From: a virus
IMG/VR virus record: IMGVR_UViG_3300047546_001428
Location: 1 to 20,255 of that record
Direction: 5' to 3' (one strand)
Length of the DNA: 20,255 nt
Positions 1 through 19,857 of the stretch are shown one piece after another. The notes below the pieces were generated by a model that made no database searches, had not been told where the DNA came from, and saw only the letters and a program-made list of their open reading frames with translations. Position 1 is the stretch's first letter, and every line of letters starts with the position of its first letter. The position numbers were made by a program, and so were the translations under genes.

Positions 1-512
1 CGCACGCAAACCACAGGAGGAATGCGCCACACCTCGTTCTTTACCAACTCCGGACTGATCAGGTCCGTGTACGCTTTATTGTTTCTGGAAGTTAAGTTCT
101 CCCATCTCACATTCTAGTGGTGAGCTCACACTGCAGGGATCAATCTGCAGTAAGAGTGCATACGAATATGCACTGCTTTAGCCACTTCCTTTCAAGTGGC
201 CTAAGTCATGTCGCTTTCTTCTCTAGGGCTGCGACAAACCTTCAGGCGCTTAACCACACTGTATCGTTTCTTCTGCTCAACCTTTCTTACTACTTAGGTA
301 TCTAAGGTAAGGGACACCGTCTCACGACGGGATCCAGGGAACGGAAGACCTTTACAGATCAACGCCCGGTCAGCGCTACAACAACTCTTACGAGTTCTGA
401 CGTATAACGCTGAAATATCTTTCTGCCTACTACATATCAGTATGTAGAGACAGAGAGAACCTTAACCCGGTGAGGGGTCTTGTTCGTGGAAATGTGCGGA
501 CACATCTCCATG
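1..512 (-). ncRNA. Probable large structured non-coding RNA (incomplete at left edge)
   Basis: No convincing gene occupies this stretch. Instead it is a run of short perfect hairpins (stem/stem): 51-55/63-67, 106-110/120-124, 130-136/145-151, 155-162/167-174, 181-187/194-200 (extended by 178-180/202-204), 209-214/231-236, 293-297/302-306, 317-321/326-330, 383-387/392-396 inside 369-373/397-401, 430-436/441-447 inside 422-425/451-454, and 485-490+492-496/501-505+507-512. Strand is inferred as minus: two loops then read C(GTGA)G and C(GTAA)G, classic GNRA tetraloops, and the single-stranded linkers become A- and purine-rich. Large ornate phage RNAs such as GOLLD and ROOL are known and have this general look, but I cannot assign a family. 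No tRNA or rRNA was recognised. The 5' end would lie near 512 and the RNA appears to continue past base 1. Confidence 0.5.
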
Positions 513-548
513 TAAAAGAAAAGAAAAAGAAAAGAAAAAACAAAAAGA
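513..548 (+). other. Polypurine tract
   Basis: About 36 bases that are almost all A and G (one C, at 541), built from irregular AAAAG and AAAAAG units, sit between the last hairpin of the structured RNA region and the terminator stem, which they enter by a few bases. On the - strand this is a long pyrimidine tract that supplies an extended U-rich tail to the terminator of the 63-aa gene. It may have no other role. Confidence 0.5.
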
Positions 549-578
549 CCCCCTTACCTTTCGGTAAAGGGGTCTTTT
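543..578 (-). terminator. Intrinsic terminator, probably bidirectional
   Basis: AAAAGACCCC at 543-552 pairs with GGGGTCTTTT at 569-578. Beyond one mismatch the stem continues as 554-558/563-567, closed on the - strand by a GAAA tetraloop. On the - strand it begins 4 bases after the stop codon of the 63-aa gene and is followed by a long U-rich tail, so it clearly serves that gene. Read on the + strand it is followed by TTTTCTTCT and could also stop rightward transcripts. Confidence 0.88.
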
Positions 579-581
579 CTT

Positions 582-773
582 CTACCAGATGGTTTCCACC
601 TCCTCGTCAGTAAGGCGGTGCAATGCCTTGAAGTCGCGGCGGGCCAAAGCCCAACCGCGAGTTGTGGTGATGGTGACCTGTGCCACCACCACGTCACCCT
701 TGATGGCAAGGAAGGTGAAGGTTTCCTTCTTGATGACCATTTCCCGCCCGTGGGAATCGACAACCTTGATCAT
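582..773 (-). CDS. Small 63-aa protein of unknown function
   Basis: I do not recognise the family. The gene is supported by a strong Shine-Dalgarno GGAGGT (777-782 on the + strand) three bases before the ATG and by an intrinsic terminator immediately after the stop. The protein begins MIKVVDSHGREMVIKKE, has an alternating hydrophobic/polar central part (FLAIKGDVVVAQVTITTT) suggesting a small beta-rich fold, and ends in a charged, probably helical tail with LTDEEVETIW. No signal peptide or membrane segment is visible. Codons are G+C-rich (GTGGTGGCA, CGCCGCGAC) unlike the AT-rich late genes on the other strand. With its own leader and terminator it looks like an independently expressed, possibly early, gene. 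Confidence 0.8.
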   Translation of the reverse strand: MIKVVDSHGREMVIKKETFTFLAIKGDVVVAQVTITTTRGWALARRDFKALHRLTDEEVETIW

Positions 774-923: not shown

Positions 924-1004
924 CTACATTGGCAGGCTCTTCCAGCCCACCCGCAGGCAGACTGAGAAGAGGCAAACGAACGCGACCAAGGCAAGCGTTG
1001 CCAT
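924..1004 (-). CDS. 26-aa hydrophobic peptide
   Basis: This is a very short reading frame but it has unusually good support: AGGAGG (1010-1015 on the + strand) lies 5 bases before the ATG, and a strong intrinsic terminator starts 3 bases after the TAG. The peptide begins MATLALVAFVCLFSVCLRVG and ends WKSLPM. Residues 2-17 are a continuous hydrophobic segment containing two cysteines, followed by Arg, Trp and Lys, which is the layout of a single-pass small membrane peptide. Function is unknown; phage inhibitory peptides, small holin-like factors and toxin-like peptides share this size and layout, but nothing here decides between them. Codons are G+C-rich like those of the neighbouring 63-aa gene. 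Confidence 0.68.
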   Translation of the reverse strand: MATLALVAFVCLFSVCLRVGWKSLPM

Positions 1005-1057
1005 GAGAACCTCCTGTGTTGTTGTTCTCGTTAAAAAAAAGAGAACTGCCACACAGG
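1005..1057 (-). promoter_or_regulatory. Leader with alternative pairings around the 26-aa gene start
   Basis: On the - strand CCTGTGT (1051-1057) is complementary to ACACAGG (1013-1019), which overlaps the AGGAGG Shine-Dalgarno, while GTTCTC (1041-1046) pairs with GAGAAC (1024-1029) inside it. The same GAGAAC can instead pair with a second GTTCTC (1005-1010) that abuts the start codon. The two GAGAAC pairings exclude each other. A run of eight U follows the first GTTCTC (1033-1040), so an attenuator is also possible. Consistent with translational or transcriptional control of the peptide; not demonstrated. Confidence 0.42.
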
Positions 1058-1095
1058 GGGGTGGGCTCGTTAGGATCCGGGGTGAGATTTTCTCA

Positions 1096-1277: not shown

Positions 1278-1580
1278 ATGAATTACGAAGAATATTACTT
1301 GGTTTCTAAAAAGTTAGAGAGAATTGTAGAGTTGGCTAAACTGATTACTGGTACTCATTTGTTTAGAGTTTGTAAGTTAGCAGATGGATCTCAGAAGGGA
1401 ATGCAATGTACTTATGCTCAGATATCTTCTAAATTAGCTGTAATAGAAGAGGCTAGTTTTTTAGATTATCTTAAAGATAATATTGATATTGTTTCGCCTG
1501 AACTTATTCAGCAGATAGAAGTTTTGTTTGAGAATTCCGGCGCCAATATTTCCTCTAACCTAGATGATAACAATGTCTAA
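1278..1580 (+). CDS. Hypothetical protein, 100 aa, first gene of the late operon
   Basis: I do not recognise this protein. It starts MNYEEYYLVSKKLERIVELA after AGGGGA, which is 5 bases upstream of the ATG, so the start is reasonably firm. The sequence is mainly helical and mildly acidic, with no signal peptide, membrane segment or repeated motif; two cysteines (in FRVCK and MQCTY) are present. It is the first gene to the right of the divergent promoter region, and its 3' end overlaps the next gene, so the two are probably translated together. The position just ahead of a terminase-small-subunit-like gene suggests a packaging or head-associated role, but that rests on position only. Confidence 0.78.
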   Translation: MNYEEYYLVSKKLERIVELAKLITGTHLFRVCKLADGSQKGMQCTYAQISSKLAVIEEASFLDYLKDNIDIVSPELIQQIEVLFENSGANISSNLDDNNV

Positions 1581-2346
1581 GTCTTTAATGAAAACTACTA
1601 GTACTGATTTGGTTAAGACACAAGAAGAGTTAATTAGTAATCTTATGACAGTAGAAGATGATTACCTTAACTACTATAACTCTTTAACACCAGATAAAAA
1701 GAACCGTATTAGTAATTCAGTGAATGGTATACATAATGGGTTACAGGCTGTGGCCCCAATCATGTGTATGGGGCCACAGAAGTGTCCGTTTATAGAGAAG
1801 TGTCCTATACCTGATAGAGATTCTTGTGGGGAGCTGGTTTACGGCGCCAAGACTCTTTACCCTATAGGAAGAGAATGTATCTTAGAGAAATTCTTTATCA
1901 AACAAAAGATGGTTGATTACGTTAAACACTTAAATGTAGATCCTAATAATCCTATAGAAATGTCTATAGTAAATGAATTAGCACTTATAGATCTTTATAA
2001 GAATAGAGCCTTGATGATTATGTCTGTTGGAGATAAATCAAACCAAGGTAGAGATTTTATGAGAGTAGATATTATTGGGTTTAATGAGAATGGTGAGAAA
2101 GCAGAACAAGCTTCTTTGCACCCTGCTGTAGAAATGATAGATCGTTTAGAGAAGAGAAGAGAGAAGTGGTTAGATCGTTTGATGGAGACAAGGAAATCTA
2201 AAGCAGATTGGGTTGCAAAGATGGGCGGGAATAATTCTGAGTCTAAGATATTGGTAGAGATACAGAAGTTAAGAGAGGCTCTGAATACAGTAGATGAAGT
2301 TAAAGAACTTACATTAGATAGTGATGATAAAATACTAATTAAGTAG
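1564..2346 (+). CDS. Cysteine-rich protein, candidate terminase small subunit
   Basis: The 260-aa protein sits two genes upstream of TerL. Around residues 67-107 it has a cysteine cluster: MCMGPQKC, then C in IEKCPI, in DSCGE and in RECIL, a pattern able to bind zinc or an iron-sulphur centre. Near residues 185-210 there is HPAVEMIDRLEKRREKWLDR, which resembles the C-terminal helix of P27-like small terminases that typically starts with an N/H-P-A motif. From that and position I infer a small-terminase-type DNA-recognition role, with low certainty. No strong Shine-Dalgarno precedes either ATG; the internal ATG at 1573 (MSKSLMKTTS) is an equally likely start. The gene overlaps its upstream neighbour. 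A 10-bp perfect hairpin lies within it at 1748-1779. Confidence 0.62.
   Translation: MITMSKSLMKTTSTDLVKTQEELISNLMTVEDDYLNYYNSLTPDKKNRISNSVNGIHNGLQAVAPIMCMGPQKCPFIEKCPIPDRDSCGELVYGAKTLYPIGRECILEKFFIKQKMVDYVKHLNVDPNNPIEMSIVNELALIDLYKNRALMIMSVGDKSNQGRDFMRVDIIGFNENGEKAEQASLHPAVEMIDRLEKRREKWLDRLMETRKSKADWVAKMGGNNSESKILVEIQKLREALNTVDEVKELTLDSDDKILIK
1748..1779 (+). repeat. In-gene perfect 10-bp hairpin
   Basis: CTGTGGCCCC (1748-1757) and GGGGCCACAG (1770-1779) flank a 12-base loop inside the cysteine-rich gene. The stem is G+C-rich although the gene is AT-rich. No U-tract follows, so it is not a terminator. Confidence 0.6.
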
Positions 2347-5679: not shown

Positions 5680-6546
5680 ATGATTGAAGCTTTTAGAGAA
5701 TATTTAATGGGTGGTTTCAGAGGAAGTATGGGGTTTAACCCATTAACTGCTGCTGAACTCGCTGATACAACTTTTAAAAGTGGAGCAACCCCTACAAGTG
5801 GGAGTTTATTGCAATTAGGTCCTAAAGTATTTCACTTTAATGCAAATGATCCTTTTAAGATGCCTGAAATTGTTGGATCAGTTAAAAATTGGAAGATGTC
5901 TGCAGCTGGGTCAGCTTTTGCTGTTGGTTCAACAGCTTATATGGCTTATACCGGATATCAAGAGAATGGTGTATCAGGCTTAAAAGATGCTCTAGTATGG
6001 GACGTAGCAGTTAACTCTGCAGTTATGTCCTCTTACACTGATGGTCCCAATTTAACAAAAGAGCTTATGCCTGGTAGATTTACAATGACAGGGGTAGCAG
6101 CTAGACAAACTGGAGCAATAGGTACAGTAGGTAAGCTTGCTGGTGGATTTAAAACATTTGCTGGTGCTGGAATTGGAGCGAGTTTAGGACAAGAAGCTTT
6201 AGGTACTCCAGGAGCATTTGCAGGTGCATACTTAGGTGCCAGAATGGGCAGAGGTACTTCTAGCTTAGTTATTGCTGCTGGAGCAGCTTTTGCTTATGCT
6301 GGAAGCGAAGTAGTAAAGAAAGGTGGAGCAATTCTTAAAGCTGGTTATGTAAACCAACAGATGAGAAGAAGAATAGATACTGCGGGCTCAATGGCTAGCT
6401 TTATGACACAAAACGCATATACAGAGAGATCAAGAGCAGTACAAGCTATGCACAGATCTCACCTTAATGCTAGAAGTGCTTTAGGTGGAGAAGCCGGCTA
6501 CTTACATATGAATAGAGATTACTTCTCTAATTACAAGAGGTTTTGA
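5680..6546 (+). CDS. Gly/Ala-rich protein with hydrophobic segments, putative virion protein
   Basis: The family is not recognised. The 288-aa protein starts two bases after the dual-nuclease stop, with AGGATG upstream as a weak ribosome binding site. Three stretches are hydrophobic and rich in small residues: about 75-95 (AAGSAFAVGSTAYMAYTGY), 152-190 with repeated GxxxG/GxxxA spacing (GAGIGASLG, GAFAGAYLGARMG) and 193-208 (SLVIAAGAAFAYAG). Such glycine-zipper-like segments are common in membrane-inserting and pore-forming proteins, including phage ejection proteins. The C-terminus is basic (MRRRID, RSHLNARS). The stop overlaps the TerL start as TGATG, implying translational coupling. Role in DNA ejection or as an internal head protein is inference. 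Confidence 0.75.
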   Translation: MIEAFREYLMGGFRGSMGFNPLTAAELADTTFKSGATPTSGSLLQLGPKVFHFNANDPFKMPEIVGSVKNWKMSAAGSAFAVGSTAYMAYTGYQENGVSGLKDALVWDVAVNSAVMSSYTDGPNLTKELMPGRFTMTGVAARQTGAIGTVGKLAGGFKTFAGAGIGASLGQEALGTPGAFAGAYLGARMGRGTSSLVIAAGAAFAYAGSEVVKKGGAILKAGYVNQQMRRRIDTAGSMASFMTQNAYTERSRAVQAMHRSHLNARSALGGEAGYLHMNRDYFSNYKRF

Positions 6547-8747
6547 TGTTAGAGGAAATTAAAAAGTTGCTTTATATAGAGAATGAGTACGGGTATCAAC
6601 ATCAGAATCCAGAAGCAGAGCTACCTGAAGAAGTAGTACAAAGCTTAATTGAGAAGTACGATATCAAGAAGCAGGTACACAGAACTTGTATCAACTGCCA
6701 AGCAAGGCAGTTGATAAAGTACGGCAAGAACGCTATTAAGTGTAGTTACATTGCAGAGGGGCTTCCAAAAGGAAGTTTATCTAAAGCAAAAGAGATAGCG
6801 TTACAGTCAGATATACCGTTTGAAAGAGCGGCACAAATACTTCTTTCTACCATTGATCCTGTTGCTTGGGCAGAACTAATGTTCGGCTTTACAGATAAAG
6901 ATGAACAATGGAAGTTAAGGAATTATCAAAAAGAACAATTAAGATGTAGTGCTCGTAGAATGGTAGTAAGAGAAGGTCGCCGTGCAGGTAAGACCTTTGC
7001 TATGGCTTTAAAGCTTCTCTATTATGCTTTTAACTTAAAGGTAAATAAAGGAAGGAACTCTCAAGGCAAAGATATAAAGTCTGGCCCAAGTATATTGATA
7101 GTTACTCCTTATCAGTCACAGATATCTAACATCTTTGCAGAAATAGAGTCTCTTCTAAAGAGAAATGAAGAACTAGTATCTTTTTGTACTACGGATTCTG
7201 GCGGCAACCTCTATGTAAAGACTCCTTTTTTTAGAATGGAGTTTGAGTTCCCAGATGGTAGCAAAGCAAAGATCTCAGGCTTCGTATCAGGAGTAGGAGT
7301 TAAAGAAGATGGATCTGGCGGTGGTGTTATGCGCGGTCAGTCTGCTGATATTGTTTACTTAGATGAAATGGATATGATTCCAGAAGAAGTATTAGAAGCA
7401 GTAGTAACTCCTATTTTGCTTACTCGTCCAGATACAATCATGTTAGCTACTTCGACACCTATTGGTGAAAAAGGTAAGTTCTACGAATGGTGTACTGAAA
7501 GGCCAGAATATAAAGAAGATTACTACCCTTCTACAGTACTTCCACACTGGAGTCAGATTAAAGAAGAGTTAGAAACAGAATCTACTAAAGATGGATTCGT
7601 TGCAGAATATATGGCAGCATTCCCTGATAGCACAGACGGTGTATTCAAAATGTCTTGGATCAAGAATGCAAGAGTTGAGTATGACTACGACTCTACAAAT
7701 GATCCAATGTATGTAAAGAAGACAACTGGTATTTCTGATGCAGGAGACTTAATTAAAAGTATAGGGATAGACTGGAACAAAAATGCAGGTACAGAATTCT
7801 ATGTTGTAGGTTATTCAGCAGCGAAGGGTTGCTGGGTAACACTTGAAGCTATCAACGTTCCTGCTTCTGAGTACTCTGCTAAGAAATGGGCAGAAGAAGT
7901 AATTAGACTTAACTATAAGTGGAAGCCGAGCTATATCTATGCAGACGAAGGTTACGGCCATACAATTATTGAAGATCTTAAGCTGCTTTCTCATAACTTA
8001 AAAAGTAAAAGAAACAAGACTCAAATGGATCAAGAGACAGCTCAATTAGAAGAAAGGTTGGTCTCGTTTAACTTCTCCAGAAATGTAGAACTTAAAAGTC
8101 CTATTAACGGCGAGACTATTGTTAAATCAGGTAAGCATTATCTAGTAGAAAACATTATCAGAATTATGGAAGACGGAAAGTTTATCTATTCAAATTCAGA
8201 TGATAACTTAACAAAGCAGTTGCAGAACTACAAGATTATTAAAAGAAATGCAGCTACTAGCAAACCTGTATATGGTATGGAAAAGCAGTCTATCGGAGAC
8301 CATAGACTGGATGCTGCTATGTTAGCCTTGGCCGCACTAACCTTAGAAGAATCAGTTTATTCAAAGAACAAAATACCTTACTCAACTCCAGGTTTAGTTT
8401 CTAAAGAAAAAGAAGAGAGCTATAACTGGGGTTCTGTACATGAAGATGCAAATAAAAGTGTAAGTGCATTACGTAGAGCTGGTTTACCTGGTGCTTTAGA
8501 AGTATTAAAAATTATAAGAGGTAATGGTAGTGAAGAAGAAGATAGAGCAATAAAGCAAAAGTATAGACAGCAAGGACTTTGGAAAACGGAAGAATCTCCT
8601 ACTTCTAGAAGCTTGTTTGGAAATGGTAAAAAAGATTCTAAACCAAGTATACTTGAATCAATTAATAAACAAGAGAATCAGTTCTCTACTCCTTTACGTT
8701 CTGGTCCAAGAAGATCAAATAGAGGAAGTAGAAGCTGGAACAAATAG
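6546..8747 (+). CDS. terL: Terminase large subunit (packaging ATPase-nuclease)
   Basis: The protein powers DNA translocation into the prohead and cuts the concatemer. The ATPase domain has a Walker A GRRAGKT (144-150), Walker B IVYLDEMD (D273, E274) and the coupling motif ATST (301-304). The RNase-H-like nuclease domain shows three acidic sites: GIDWN (D409), IYADEG (D467) and GDHRLDA (D585/D589). Residues 48-66 carry C-x2-C and a further Cys, a possible half zinc ribbon not typical of terminases. At 733 aa it is longer than most, with a Ser/Arg/Gly-rich tail. The ATG at 6546 is preferred over the in-frame TTG one codon earlier because AGAGG lies 5 bases before it and it forms a TGATG overlap with the upstream gene. 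Confidence 0.96.
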   Translation: MLEEIKKLLYIENEYGYQHQNPEAELPEEVVQSLIEKYDIKKQVHRTCINCQARQLIKYGKNAIKCSYIAEGLPKGSLSKAKEIALQSDIPFERAAQILLSTIDPVAWAELMFGFTDKDEQWKLRNYQKEQLRCSARRMVVREGRRAGKTFAMALKLLYYAFNLKVNKGRNSQGKDIKSGPSILIVTPYQSQISNIFAEIESLLKRNEELVSFCTTDSGGNLYVKTPFFRMEFEFPDGSKAKISGFVSGVGVKEDGSGGGVMRGQSADIVYLDEMDMIPEEVLEAVVTPILLTRPDTIMLATSTPIGEKGKFYEWCTERPEYKEDYYPSTVLPHWSQIKEELETESTKDGFVAEYMAAFPDSTDGVFKMSWIKNARVEYDYDSTNDPMYVKKTTGISDAGDLIKSIGIDWNKNAGTEFYVVGYSAAKGCWVTLEAINVPASEYSAKKWAEEVIRLNYKWKPSYIYADEGYGHTIIEDLKLLSHNLKSKRNKTQMDQETAQLEERLVSFNFSRNVELKSPINGETIVKSGKHYLVENIIRIMEDGKFIYSNSDDNLTKQLQNYKIIKRNAATSKPVYGMEKQSIGDHRLDAAMLALAALTLEESVYSKNKIPYSTPGLVSKEKEESYNWGSVHEDANKSVSALRRAGLPGALEVLKIIRGNGSEEEDRAIKQKYRQQGLWKTEESPTSRSLFGNGKKDSKPSILESINKQENQFSTPLRSGPRRSNRGSRSWNK

Positions 8748-12802: not shown

Positions 12803-14236
12803 ATGAAATTAGAACTCTTACAGTTAGCTTTATCTATTACTGACGAAGCTCAACCCACTGGCTATCAAAAGAACTTTGTTGATGCTAACAAACCTAGCGT
12901 TATTAAAAAAGTTAAAGATAGAGGTATCTCTTATGCAGAGAGACATAGAGGTAGTTGGTATAAACCAGAATATGATTTAGAAGAAATTTCTATTGCTCAA
13001 GATACTGACTCATACATCTATAGAGCTTTAAAGAAAAAGAACAATCGCTTTCTAATCTCTGGATGTGAGATCGTTGGTTTTAATGAAGAGTACGTTAACT
13101 ATGTAAAGAGAAGAGTTTCTGAAATAGAGACCGCCCAAAACAAACCTTTCTACATTCTTCTAACAGAAACTGCTTTTGACTTAGACAGATACTCTAACTG
13201 TATGTGGGTTAAAGCCAGAGACCCAGAGGTCTCTTCTGGAAAGAAGAGAACTCTTTATACTGGTAAAGAAATTGATCCAGTAGCAGCTTACTTCATTCTT
13301 CCTTTTGAAACACTTTACTTCAAAAGCAAAATGAATGGAGAAATAAAAAAGGTTCTACAAGAGACACCTAGTGGAGAAACAAAAGAGTTTTTCCCAGAAG
13401 ATCTCATTCACTTCTACGACAACAAGAAGCCTGGATTCACTATGGGGACTCCAGCGCTTTTACCAGTACTACAAGATGTTTCTCTTCTAAGAAGATTAGA
13501 AGAGAATGTAGAAGAGCTAATAGAGTCAAATCTATTCCCTCTGTTCCATTACACTGTAGGTACTGATGAGTATCCAGAAAGATATAGCCCAGATGGCTAT
13601 AAAGAGACAGAGATCGTTAGAAAGTCTATAGACTATATGCCTGCAGGTGGTGTTTATGTCTCCGATCATAGACACAAGATCAGCGCTATTGGATCTCAGG
13701 GTAAAGCATTACAAATAGAATCCTACCTTGACTACTTTAAGAAAAGAGTATTCTCTGGTTTGGGAGTGTCTTCTGTAGACATGGGTGAAAGCGATACAGC
13801 TAATAGAGCAACTGCTAACGTTCTTTCTAAGAGTGCAATACAAGATGTAGAAGCACTACAAGAAATAATTAGAAACTTTGTTGAGTTCTACGTATTTAAA
13901 GAACTGCTTTTAGAAGGTGGATATGAATTTGATCTTCACGATCCAATGAAGAAAGTAAGTATTAAATTTGGTTCCGTAGATAAAGAGCAGCAAATAAAGA
14001 TTGAGAATCAGGCAACCCAATTATTTAATAACAACTTACTAACCAAAAACGAAGCAAGAAAAAGAATTGGTGAGAAACCATTTAGTCAAGAAGATGAGCT
14101 TCAGACTAATTTCGAATTACACCAAAAGCCATTAGCTTTGTTAAAATTTCCAGGTGCTTCTATTGACGGCTCAGTAGAAAATACAAGTATGCCTGAGAAT
14201 CAATTCGGTAAGAATACAAGTCCTAACTTAGAGTAA
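12803..14236 (+). CDS. Portal protein
   Basis: The 477-aa product forms the dodecameric ring at the unique vertex through which DNA enters and leaves. Family signs are the central block LIHFYDNKKPGFTMGTPALL (201-220), followed by PVLQDVSLLRRLEENVEELI, the typical portal pattern in which a clip/stem region leads to long crown helices. Others are the segment KKRVFSGLGVSSVDMGES (313-330) with the phage-portal xGxP/S-type loop and the helix carrying NVLSKSAIQDVEALQEIIR. Length is usual for the family. An AGGTAATGAA stretch precedes the start; the gene begins 8 bases after its neighbour. Position between TerL and protease supports the call. Confidence 0.93.
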   Translation: MKLELLQLALSITDEAQPTGYQKNFVDANKPSVIKKVKDRGISYAERHRGSWYKPEYDLEEISIAQDTDSYIYRALKKKNNRFLISGCEIVGFNEEYVNYVKRRVSEIETAQNKPFYILLTETAFDLDRYSNCMWVKARDPEVSSGKKRTLYTGKEIDPVAAYFILPFETLYFKSKMNGEIKKVLQETPSGETKEFFPEDLIHFYDNKKPGFTMGTPALLPVLQDVSLLRRLEENVEELIESNLFPLFHYTVGTDEYPERYSPDGYKETEIVRKSIDYMPAGGVYVSDHRHKISAIGSQGKALQIESYLDYFKKRVFSGLGVSSVDMGESDTANRATANVLSKSAIQDVEALQEIIRNFVEFYVFKELLLEGGYEFDLHDPMKKVSIKFGSVDKEQQIKIENQATQLFNNNLLTKNEARKRIGEKPFSQEDELQTNFELHQKPLALLKFPGASIDGSVENTSMPENQFGKNTSPNLE

Positions 14237-18552: not shown

Positions 18553-19857
18553 ATGAAACTTAAATTAGCTAATGGTCGCGCTCTCGACCTACCATCAAGT
18601 CAGGATGCTGCTGCTCGTTATGTAGCAGATATGATCGTCAATAGAGGTCACCTTCCTGATAGCAACGAAAGAGTTGAGTGGTCAACCTTTGCTGAAACTA
18701 TTTCACCAAAGAACACCGACCTAGTTCGTAGCTCAGAGATCACCCCACTACTCCAGCAAGCAACTGAGATCATCATTCGTGAACCAGTAGAGCCAAACAT
18801 GGTAATCACTGGTCTATATGATCGCGTTCAAGCCCAAGGCATGAACACTCAGATTCTTGCAGGCGCTATGGGTGCTGTTTATGCTCAGGATATCCAAGAG
18901 CATGGCCAGTATCCAGAGGTTAACTTCCAAGTTGGCGGTGCAGTAAGCACCGCTTACATTGGTAAGTGCGGTATTGCTGCTGCTTTCACAGATGAGTCAC
19001 TCCGTTACTCAACCTGGGATATCATGGCAATGAACCTTCGCCTAATGGGTCAGGCTCTTGTACGCCACAAGGAGCAGAAAGCTGCTTCATTCCTCAAGGC
19101 TCTAGGCACCACCCTTTACGATAACGCTAACCCTGCACAGTCACTTTTCGGTGTTACTTCAGGTCGTAGCGGTACACTAAGCGGTAACGGTACCATGACC
19201 ATGGATGACCTCATGAGAGCATTTGCTCACATGTCTCAGGAAGGCTTTACTCCTAACATCCTACTTGTTCACCCACTCCAGTTCTACTCATTCGTTCAGG
19301 ATCCAATCCTTCGCGATATGATGCTAGCTCACGGTGGCGGTGCATGGTTCAACCCCTACAACGGCAACCCCGGTCCTCGCGATCCTTATTCAAACGGTCG
19401 TATGGGCGCAATGGGTCCAAGCACTGGTCGTTCAATCGTTCCTCCTGGTTCACCAGGCGGTGCTGCAACTCCAGTAACTGGTTATAGCCAGCAGGCAACT
19501 TCAGTACCTAACCTACCCCCATACATGCCATTTAACTTCCAGGTTATTGCTTCACCTCTCGTTCCCTTCGATGTTGATCAGAACCTTGGCGATGTATTCC
19601 TCCTCTCCGGTGGTAACGTAGGCTTCCACCTCGTTGATGAAGAGGCACAGACTGTTGAGTGGCGTGACGAGAACGTAGATGTAACCAAGATCAAGATCCG
19701 CGAGCGTTACGGCTTTGCCGTCAAGCACGAGGGTCAAGGTGTTGGCGTCTTCCGCAACGTCAAGGCAGATCGCAACTACTGGAACGGTCAGGTTAACGCT
19801 ACACTCGATGCTAGCGGCGCTACCATACCTCTACCTCCTGGTACCCCTGTAGTCTGA
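18553..19857 (+). CDS. Major capsid protein (HK97-like fold)
   Basis: The protein forms the icosahedral shell. Evidence is the position after protease and scaffold, high-expression codon bias, AGGAGATTAAA before the ATG and family-type segments. These are an N-terminal helical arm that could be trimmed by the protease, a central ITPLLQQATEIIIREPVEPN stretch, the beta-hairpin/spine region GKCGIAAAFTDESLRYSTWD (137-156) with the long helix IMAMNLRLMGQALVRHKEQK, and a TPNILLVHP motif (233-241) of the axial domain. About 261-325 is an unusual Gly/Pro/Asn-rich insertion (FNPYNGNPGPRDPYSNGR) without obvious helices, perhaps an exposed loop or capsid-stabilising element. The 434-aa length is within the usual range. 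Confidence 0.88.
   Translation: MKLKLANGRALDLPSSQDAAARYVADMIVNRGHLPDSNERVEWSTFAETISPKNTDLVRSSEITPLLQQATEIIIREPVEPNMVITGLYDRVQAQGMNTQILAGAMGAVYAQDIQEHGQYPEVNFQVGGAVSTAYIGKCGIAAAFTDESLRYSTWDIMAMNLRLMGQALVRHKEQKAASFLKALGTTLYDNANPAQSLFGVTSGRSGTLSGNGTMTMDDLMRAFAHMSQEGFTPNILLVHPLQFYSFVQDPILRDMMLAHGGGAWFNPYNGNPGPRDPYSNGRMGAMGPSTGRSIVPPGSPGGAATPVTGYSQQATSVPNLPPYMPFNFQVIASPLVPFDVDQNLGDVFLLSGGNVGFHLVDEEAQTVEWRDENVDVTKIKIRERYGFAVKHEGQGVGVFRNVKADRNYWNGQVNATLDASGATIPLPPGTPVV

Follow-up and report, generated by a model that had tools for sequence, protein, structure and literature searches.

The window analysed here, a virus record of 20,255 bases, begins at a contig end with a stretch crowded with hairpins, and the question raised is what kind of element occupies positions 1–512. 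The first-pass annotation had proposed a hairpin-dense non-coding RNA without a credible gene. This proposal was upheld: no credible ORF was found in positions 1–512, a tRNA search of the same positions was negative, and the minus-strand minimum free energy (MFE) was −193.3 kcal/mol (z −7.0 versus shuffled sequences). With perfect hairpins defined as stems of at least five Watson–Crick pairs and loops of 3–8 nt, nine were counted, compared to a mean of 2.3 in shuffled sequences, with 1 of 500 shuffles reaching nine. The density claimed earlier was therefore real; the original figure of at least eleven hairpins takes in near-perfect ones. The two C-G-closed loops described at the outset, GTGA and GTAA, were indeed present on the minus strand, together with two UNCG loops (TTCG and TCCG). 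GNRA or UNCG sequences accounted for four of the six tetraloops on the minus strand and none of the six on the plus strand. Because such loops appear on the minus strand only, this was taken to be the RNA strand; the plus-strand fold, terminator included, gave z −6.1. Positions 1–512 very probably belong to a large, structured minus-strand RNA that codes for no protein and is represented here by its 5′ part. Since the left edge of the window is the contig end, the element is truncated and its 3′ end is missing.

Plus-strand genes run rightwards from position 1278. The left arm is divergent to them and is made up of small minus-strand units, each closed by a terminator hairpin and U-run (Table 1). 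Many left-arm units in relatives open with a U-run, then AAUGG, UAUGG or AACGG, and then a 5′ hairpin; the 5′ end of the window RNA would lie near the ACATGG element. When the 63-aa protein encoded upstream of the RNA was used as bait, homologues were found in L044–L046 only, at ~61% identity.

Table 1. Features of the window, and lengths of the RNA stretches at the equivalent place in relatives (L numbers), whose boundaries were set by eye.
Feature	Position or length	Strand	Basis or remark
Large structured RNA (candidate)	1..512	-	z −7.0, no gene, strand-specific GNRA/UNCG loops, position as in relatives' RNAs
Shared module: hairpin with possible pseudoknot, then ACUUAG as joint, then hairpin of 7 bp and GAAAGG hexaloop	158..242	-	covariance model
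Helix CUACAUA..UAUGUAG, then UAGG	430..447	-	weak
U-rich stretch with ACAUGG at its end	508..546	-	directly before RNA; sequence
Terminator hairpin, U-run on both strands	547..580	-	sequence; closes upstream minus-strand gene
Gene for 63-aa protein, upstream of RNA	582..773	-	
Possible 26-aa hydrophobic peptide (MATLALVAFVCLFSVCLRVGWKSLPM)	924-1004	-	strong ribosome-binding site ahead
GAGCCCACC-centred motif	1057-1075	-	start of minus-strand arm
Protein with invariant cysteines (CxGPxKCPFxxxCPIP)	1564-2346		beside structural genes, conserved clade-wide
Terminase large subunit	6543-8747		PHROG match
Portal	12803-14236		PHROG match
Major head protein	18553-19857		PHROG match
Relatives' RNAs	L004 ~400 nt; L026 455; L069 535; L047 and L063 ~540		
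Relatives' RNAs	L038/L039 600 or more; L112, L090 and L050 ~700; L101 730; L035 775		
Relatives' RNAs	L109 800; L105 915; L012 960; L009 1,310; L053 1,200 or more		

The GAGCCCACC motif was also observed at the equivalent place in L004, L026, L045, L047, L090, L095, L101, L103, L109 and L124, and, with one base changed, in L069 and L110; it might act as a promoter or antitermination element for the terminator-rich arm. A multisubunit RNA polymerase, looked for as the reader of a phage promoter, was not found; a search for a T7-type polymerase likewise gave no match, which says little because its controls were silent too. The cysteine-containing protein had no PHROG match and is probably zinc-binding.

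At the DNA level, no meaningful similarity to 50,697 phage records was obtained with three queries, blastn returning short unrelated matches only, and an exact 53-mer from the window RNA was absent from viral contigs. Protein queries were more productive. The terminase large subunit (TerL) retrieved 51 viral loci, and an alignment of the neighbouring CxxGPxKCPF protein (1564-2346 in the window) retrieved 53, many of them on the TerL contigs. The left arms of these relatives often carry, at the equivalent place, non-coding and hairpin-packed minus-strand stretches of ~400–1,300 nt. Nineteen of 21 such stretches folded better than shuffled sequences (z −3.6 to −17.5). The two that were not clearly better were L103 (z −1.8) and L036 (z −1.6); the latter had first been listed as a member and was dropped on this score. 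In L124, which its neighbouring protein shows to be closely related, only a short stretch lies at this place, and some members of the clade are without a large RNA. Minus-strand hammerhead-like cores (CUGAUGA, a stem, GAAA) were seen at L110:350-440, L100:3880-4980, L102:4500-4600 and L094:4440-4480, in the arms of members where no giant RNA could be recognised; they went unreported by Rfam, even at E 1.

The relatives' RNAs almost never align with one another. What they have in common is their position, the layout of the transcription unit and the strand specificity of their tetraloops, and some also share modules; shared k-mers were in modest excess only. No full-length alignable homologue of the window RNA was found, the alignable part being a module of ~85 nt. 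The window RNA nevertheless occupies the same arm and strand, shows the same unit layout and carries RNA-type tetraloops on its sense strand only. The 3′ halves (254 nt) of the L063 and L047 RNAs (L063:393-645 and L047:446-698) were 96% identical and their 5′ halves were unrelated, which suggests modular exchange of RNA domains between phages. The ATATGTAGTAGG sequence of the helix at 430..447 recurs near the 5′ end of the L050 RNA, a weak match.

Evidence at the RNA level came from loops and from base pairs. Of 53 tetraloops on the sense strands of 20 RNAs, 15 were GNRA and 9 were UNCG, compared to 0 and 0 of 53 on the antisense strands and averages of 0.5 GNRA and 0.1 UNCG in shuffled sequences. 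With the window excluded, the counts were 13 GNRA and 7 UNCG of 47 on the sense strands versus 0 antisense. Base-pair covariation, named as a check when the element was first annotated, was assessed in the two pairs of relatives similar enough for comparison, L004/L026 (59% identity) and L038/L039 (85%). The fold of one sequence was imposed on the other, and the number of pairs in which both partners differed was divided by the number of broken pairs, the pairs being unselected for covariation. Ratios of 0.43 (L004/L026) and 0.36 (L038/L039) were obtained, compared to 0.05–0.20 in 14 controls that used coding sequence or other DNA from the arms; compensatory changes thus exceeded the controls in both. 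The opposite strands of the same RNAs gave 0.29 and 0.22, in line with what complementary folds should give. RNAalifold assigned both-sides changes to 25 of 83 and 7 of 164 base pairs in the two comparisons.

A direct link between the window and its relatives was provided by the shared module, in which a first hairpin is connected through a CUUAG joint to a second, of 7 bp, that has a GNAAGG loop. An 84-nt segment of L038/L039 alone served to build a covariance model (R1), which was searched against both strands of 35 loci (501 kb). It matched the minus strand of the window module with E 0.043 over the 501 kb, and L112 twice (E 0.018 and 0.031). These three were the sole matches under E 0.1 beyond the source loci, and each lay within an RNA candidate and on its RNA strand. 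On the window alone, E was 0.0018 and the next match 0.28. The R1 E-value is somewhat optimistic, since the module was chosen after the window hairpin had been noticed in L038 and L112. Between L038 and L039, the pseudoknot stem CCAAC/GUUGG is replaced by CCAUA/UAUGG. A second model, R2, takes in the window sequence, so that its match there is by construction; in its alignment, changes on both sides were seen in 13 of 17 pairs, and since the structure was fitted on this alignment the count is biased in its favour. As judged by the covariance model, the window RNA belongs with the relatives' RNAs through this common module. The GNAAGG module seems to be repeated within single RNAs (L039:11-76 and L112:5345-5664). 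A degenerate hairpin pattern run against viral contigs returned the L038/L039 contigs and one in-gene match, which was rejected as chance.

The gene that follows the RNA encodes a membrane protein in all 11 relatives with a complete next gene; in the window copy this place lies off the contig. A hydrophobic stretch of membrane-helix strength (Kyte–Doolittle mean 1.6) was present in 11 of 11 next genes versus 26 of the 93 remaining ORFs of the arms (p 3.8e-6), and within the first 60 residues in 10 of 11 versus 24 of 93 (p 4.2e-5), a statistic that is post hoc and depends on the RNA boundaries set by eye. No Pfam or PHROG family above cut-off was found for these proteins. In the ORFs after the L026 and L012 RNAs (L026:807-1835 and L012:437-1606), an in-frame ATG with a strong ribosome-binding site was observed past the hydrophobic part, so that these phages may also produce a shorter, soluble form. 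A membrane-protein gene immediately downstream of a large structured RNA, as in these 11 relatives, recalls OLE RNA, which is usually followed by oapA, the gene of a membrane protein to which the RNA binds (PMC12265935). OapA has four predicted TM helices, whereas most of the proteins here combine a single hydrophobic stretch at the N terminus with a long soluble tail; unlike OLE, the locus here is phage-borne and hypervariable, and it has no Rfam match, the OLE covariance model being unmatched in the window and in the relatives' loci. OLE/OapA is the closest layout, but no relative by any test run.

In kind, the closest known systems are GOLLD and ROOL. GOLLD is likewise giant and phage-borne, with a conserved 3′ region and a variable 5′ region, and ROOL, of ~600 nt, is phage-borne and ornate; both form RNA-only nanocages (PMC12286853). 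The resemblance suggested by the first-pass annotation held in this sense of a large, hairpin-dense, phage-borne RNA, and failed for sequence and structure. When the whole of Rfam 15 was run on the window, GOLLD and ROOL included, as had been advised, no match reached the gathering score; weak matches (E<1) were terminator-like or simple hairpins at the edge of or outside positions 1–512 and were ignored. No family matched in the 21 relatives' loci scanned, and the GOLLD (RF02032) and ROOL models were specifically unmatched in both the window and the relatives. A separate GOLLD search of 12 records was also negative, a result that is weak taken alone because the control genomes were silent too. 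GOLLD and ROOL are often near tRNA genes. The window contains no tRNA, and the RNA here does not sit in a tRNA array. That the locus encodes a strongly diverged GOLLD or ROOL RNA is very unlikely, despite similar sizes, the occurrence in phages and a variable 5′ part (PMC12286853); the absence of any Rfam match in the window and the relatives' loci scanned, and of tRNAs in the window, argues against it. Compared to ROOL, the RNA here is highly variable in sequence. As far as Rfam and the literature searched show, the element is undescribed, as first claimed. Large intergenic transcripts outside the described families, whose role is unknown, occur in ICP1 and phage K (PMC7567579, PMC9241854); these were seen as abundant transcripts. 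A replication origin, a packaging site or another element whose hairpins act at the DNA level would also be hairpin-dense and non-coding, and a place between divergent modules near the terminase gene would suit it. This is extremely unlikely, given the confinement of RNA-type tetraloops to one strand, the G-U pairs among the compensatory changes and the position within a row of terminated minus-strand units.

A stronger competitor, improbable as it still is, is that the stretch is no free RNA but a 5′ leader of exceptional length, through which the membrane-protein gene after it would be controlled in cis, by translation, termination or stability. In most members there is no terminator between the RNA and the next gene and the RNA runs into the ribosome-binding site, which would suit a cis leader; moreover, a 5′ hairpin also opens other left-arm units. 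In L090 and L101, however, the RNA has its own terminator ahead of the next gene, which favours a free RNA. A length of 400–1,300 nt with many independent hairpins also far exceeds the need of known leaders, and the L063 and L047 RNAs have wholly different 5′ parts, while the gene and 3′ half are ~96% identical.

On the present comparisons, the window RNA appears to be one example of a clade-wide, hypervariable large-RNA locus beside membrane-protein genes. We read its product as an RNA or RNP that probably acts in trans with a membrane protein as partner, similar to OLE/OapA in layout though not in sequence. The reading that we favour, by a modest degree of confidence, is that the window holds the 5′ part of a large RNA that acts in trans and is coupled to the downstream membrane protein. 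The membrane-coupled trans-acting mechanism itself is put forward tentatively: in infected cells the RNA would build up as a folded particle that acts in trans, either alone or together with protein. Its coupling to the product of the next gene, a membrane protein, would be much like that of OLE RNA to OapA, and its fast change would reflect an arms race or loose sequence constraint. Rather more speculatively, each phage of the clade might make its own giant RNA, anchored or shielded by a dedicated membrane protein as a phage-made membrane RNP. Were such an RNP made, which we regard as doubtful, the RNA sequence would turn over almost completely while position, strand and type of partner were kept.

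To our knowledge, few large structured bacterial or phage RNAs have been described, and their roles are mostly open. The RNA sequence changes so fast in this clade that family-by-family homology scans would miss such RNAs. A dedicated large-RNA locus that persists across a phage clade and is barely alignable would provide many natural variants for testing RNA function.
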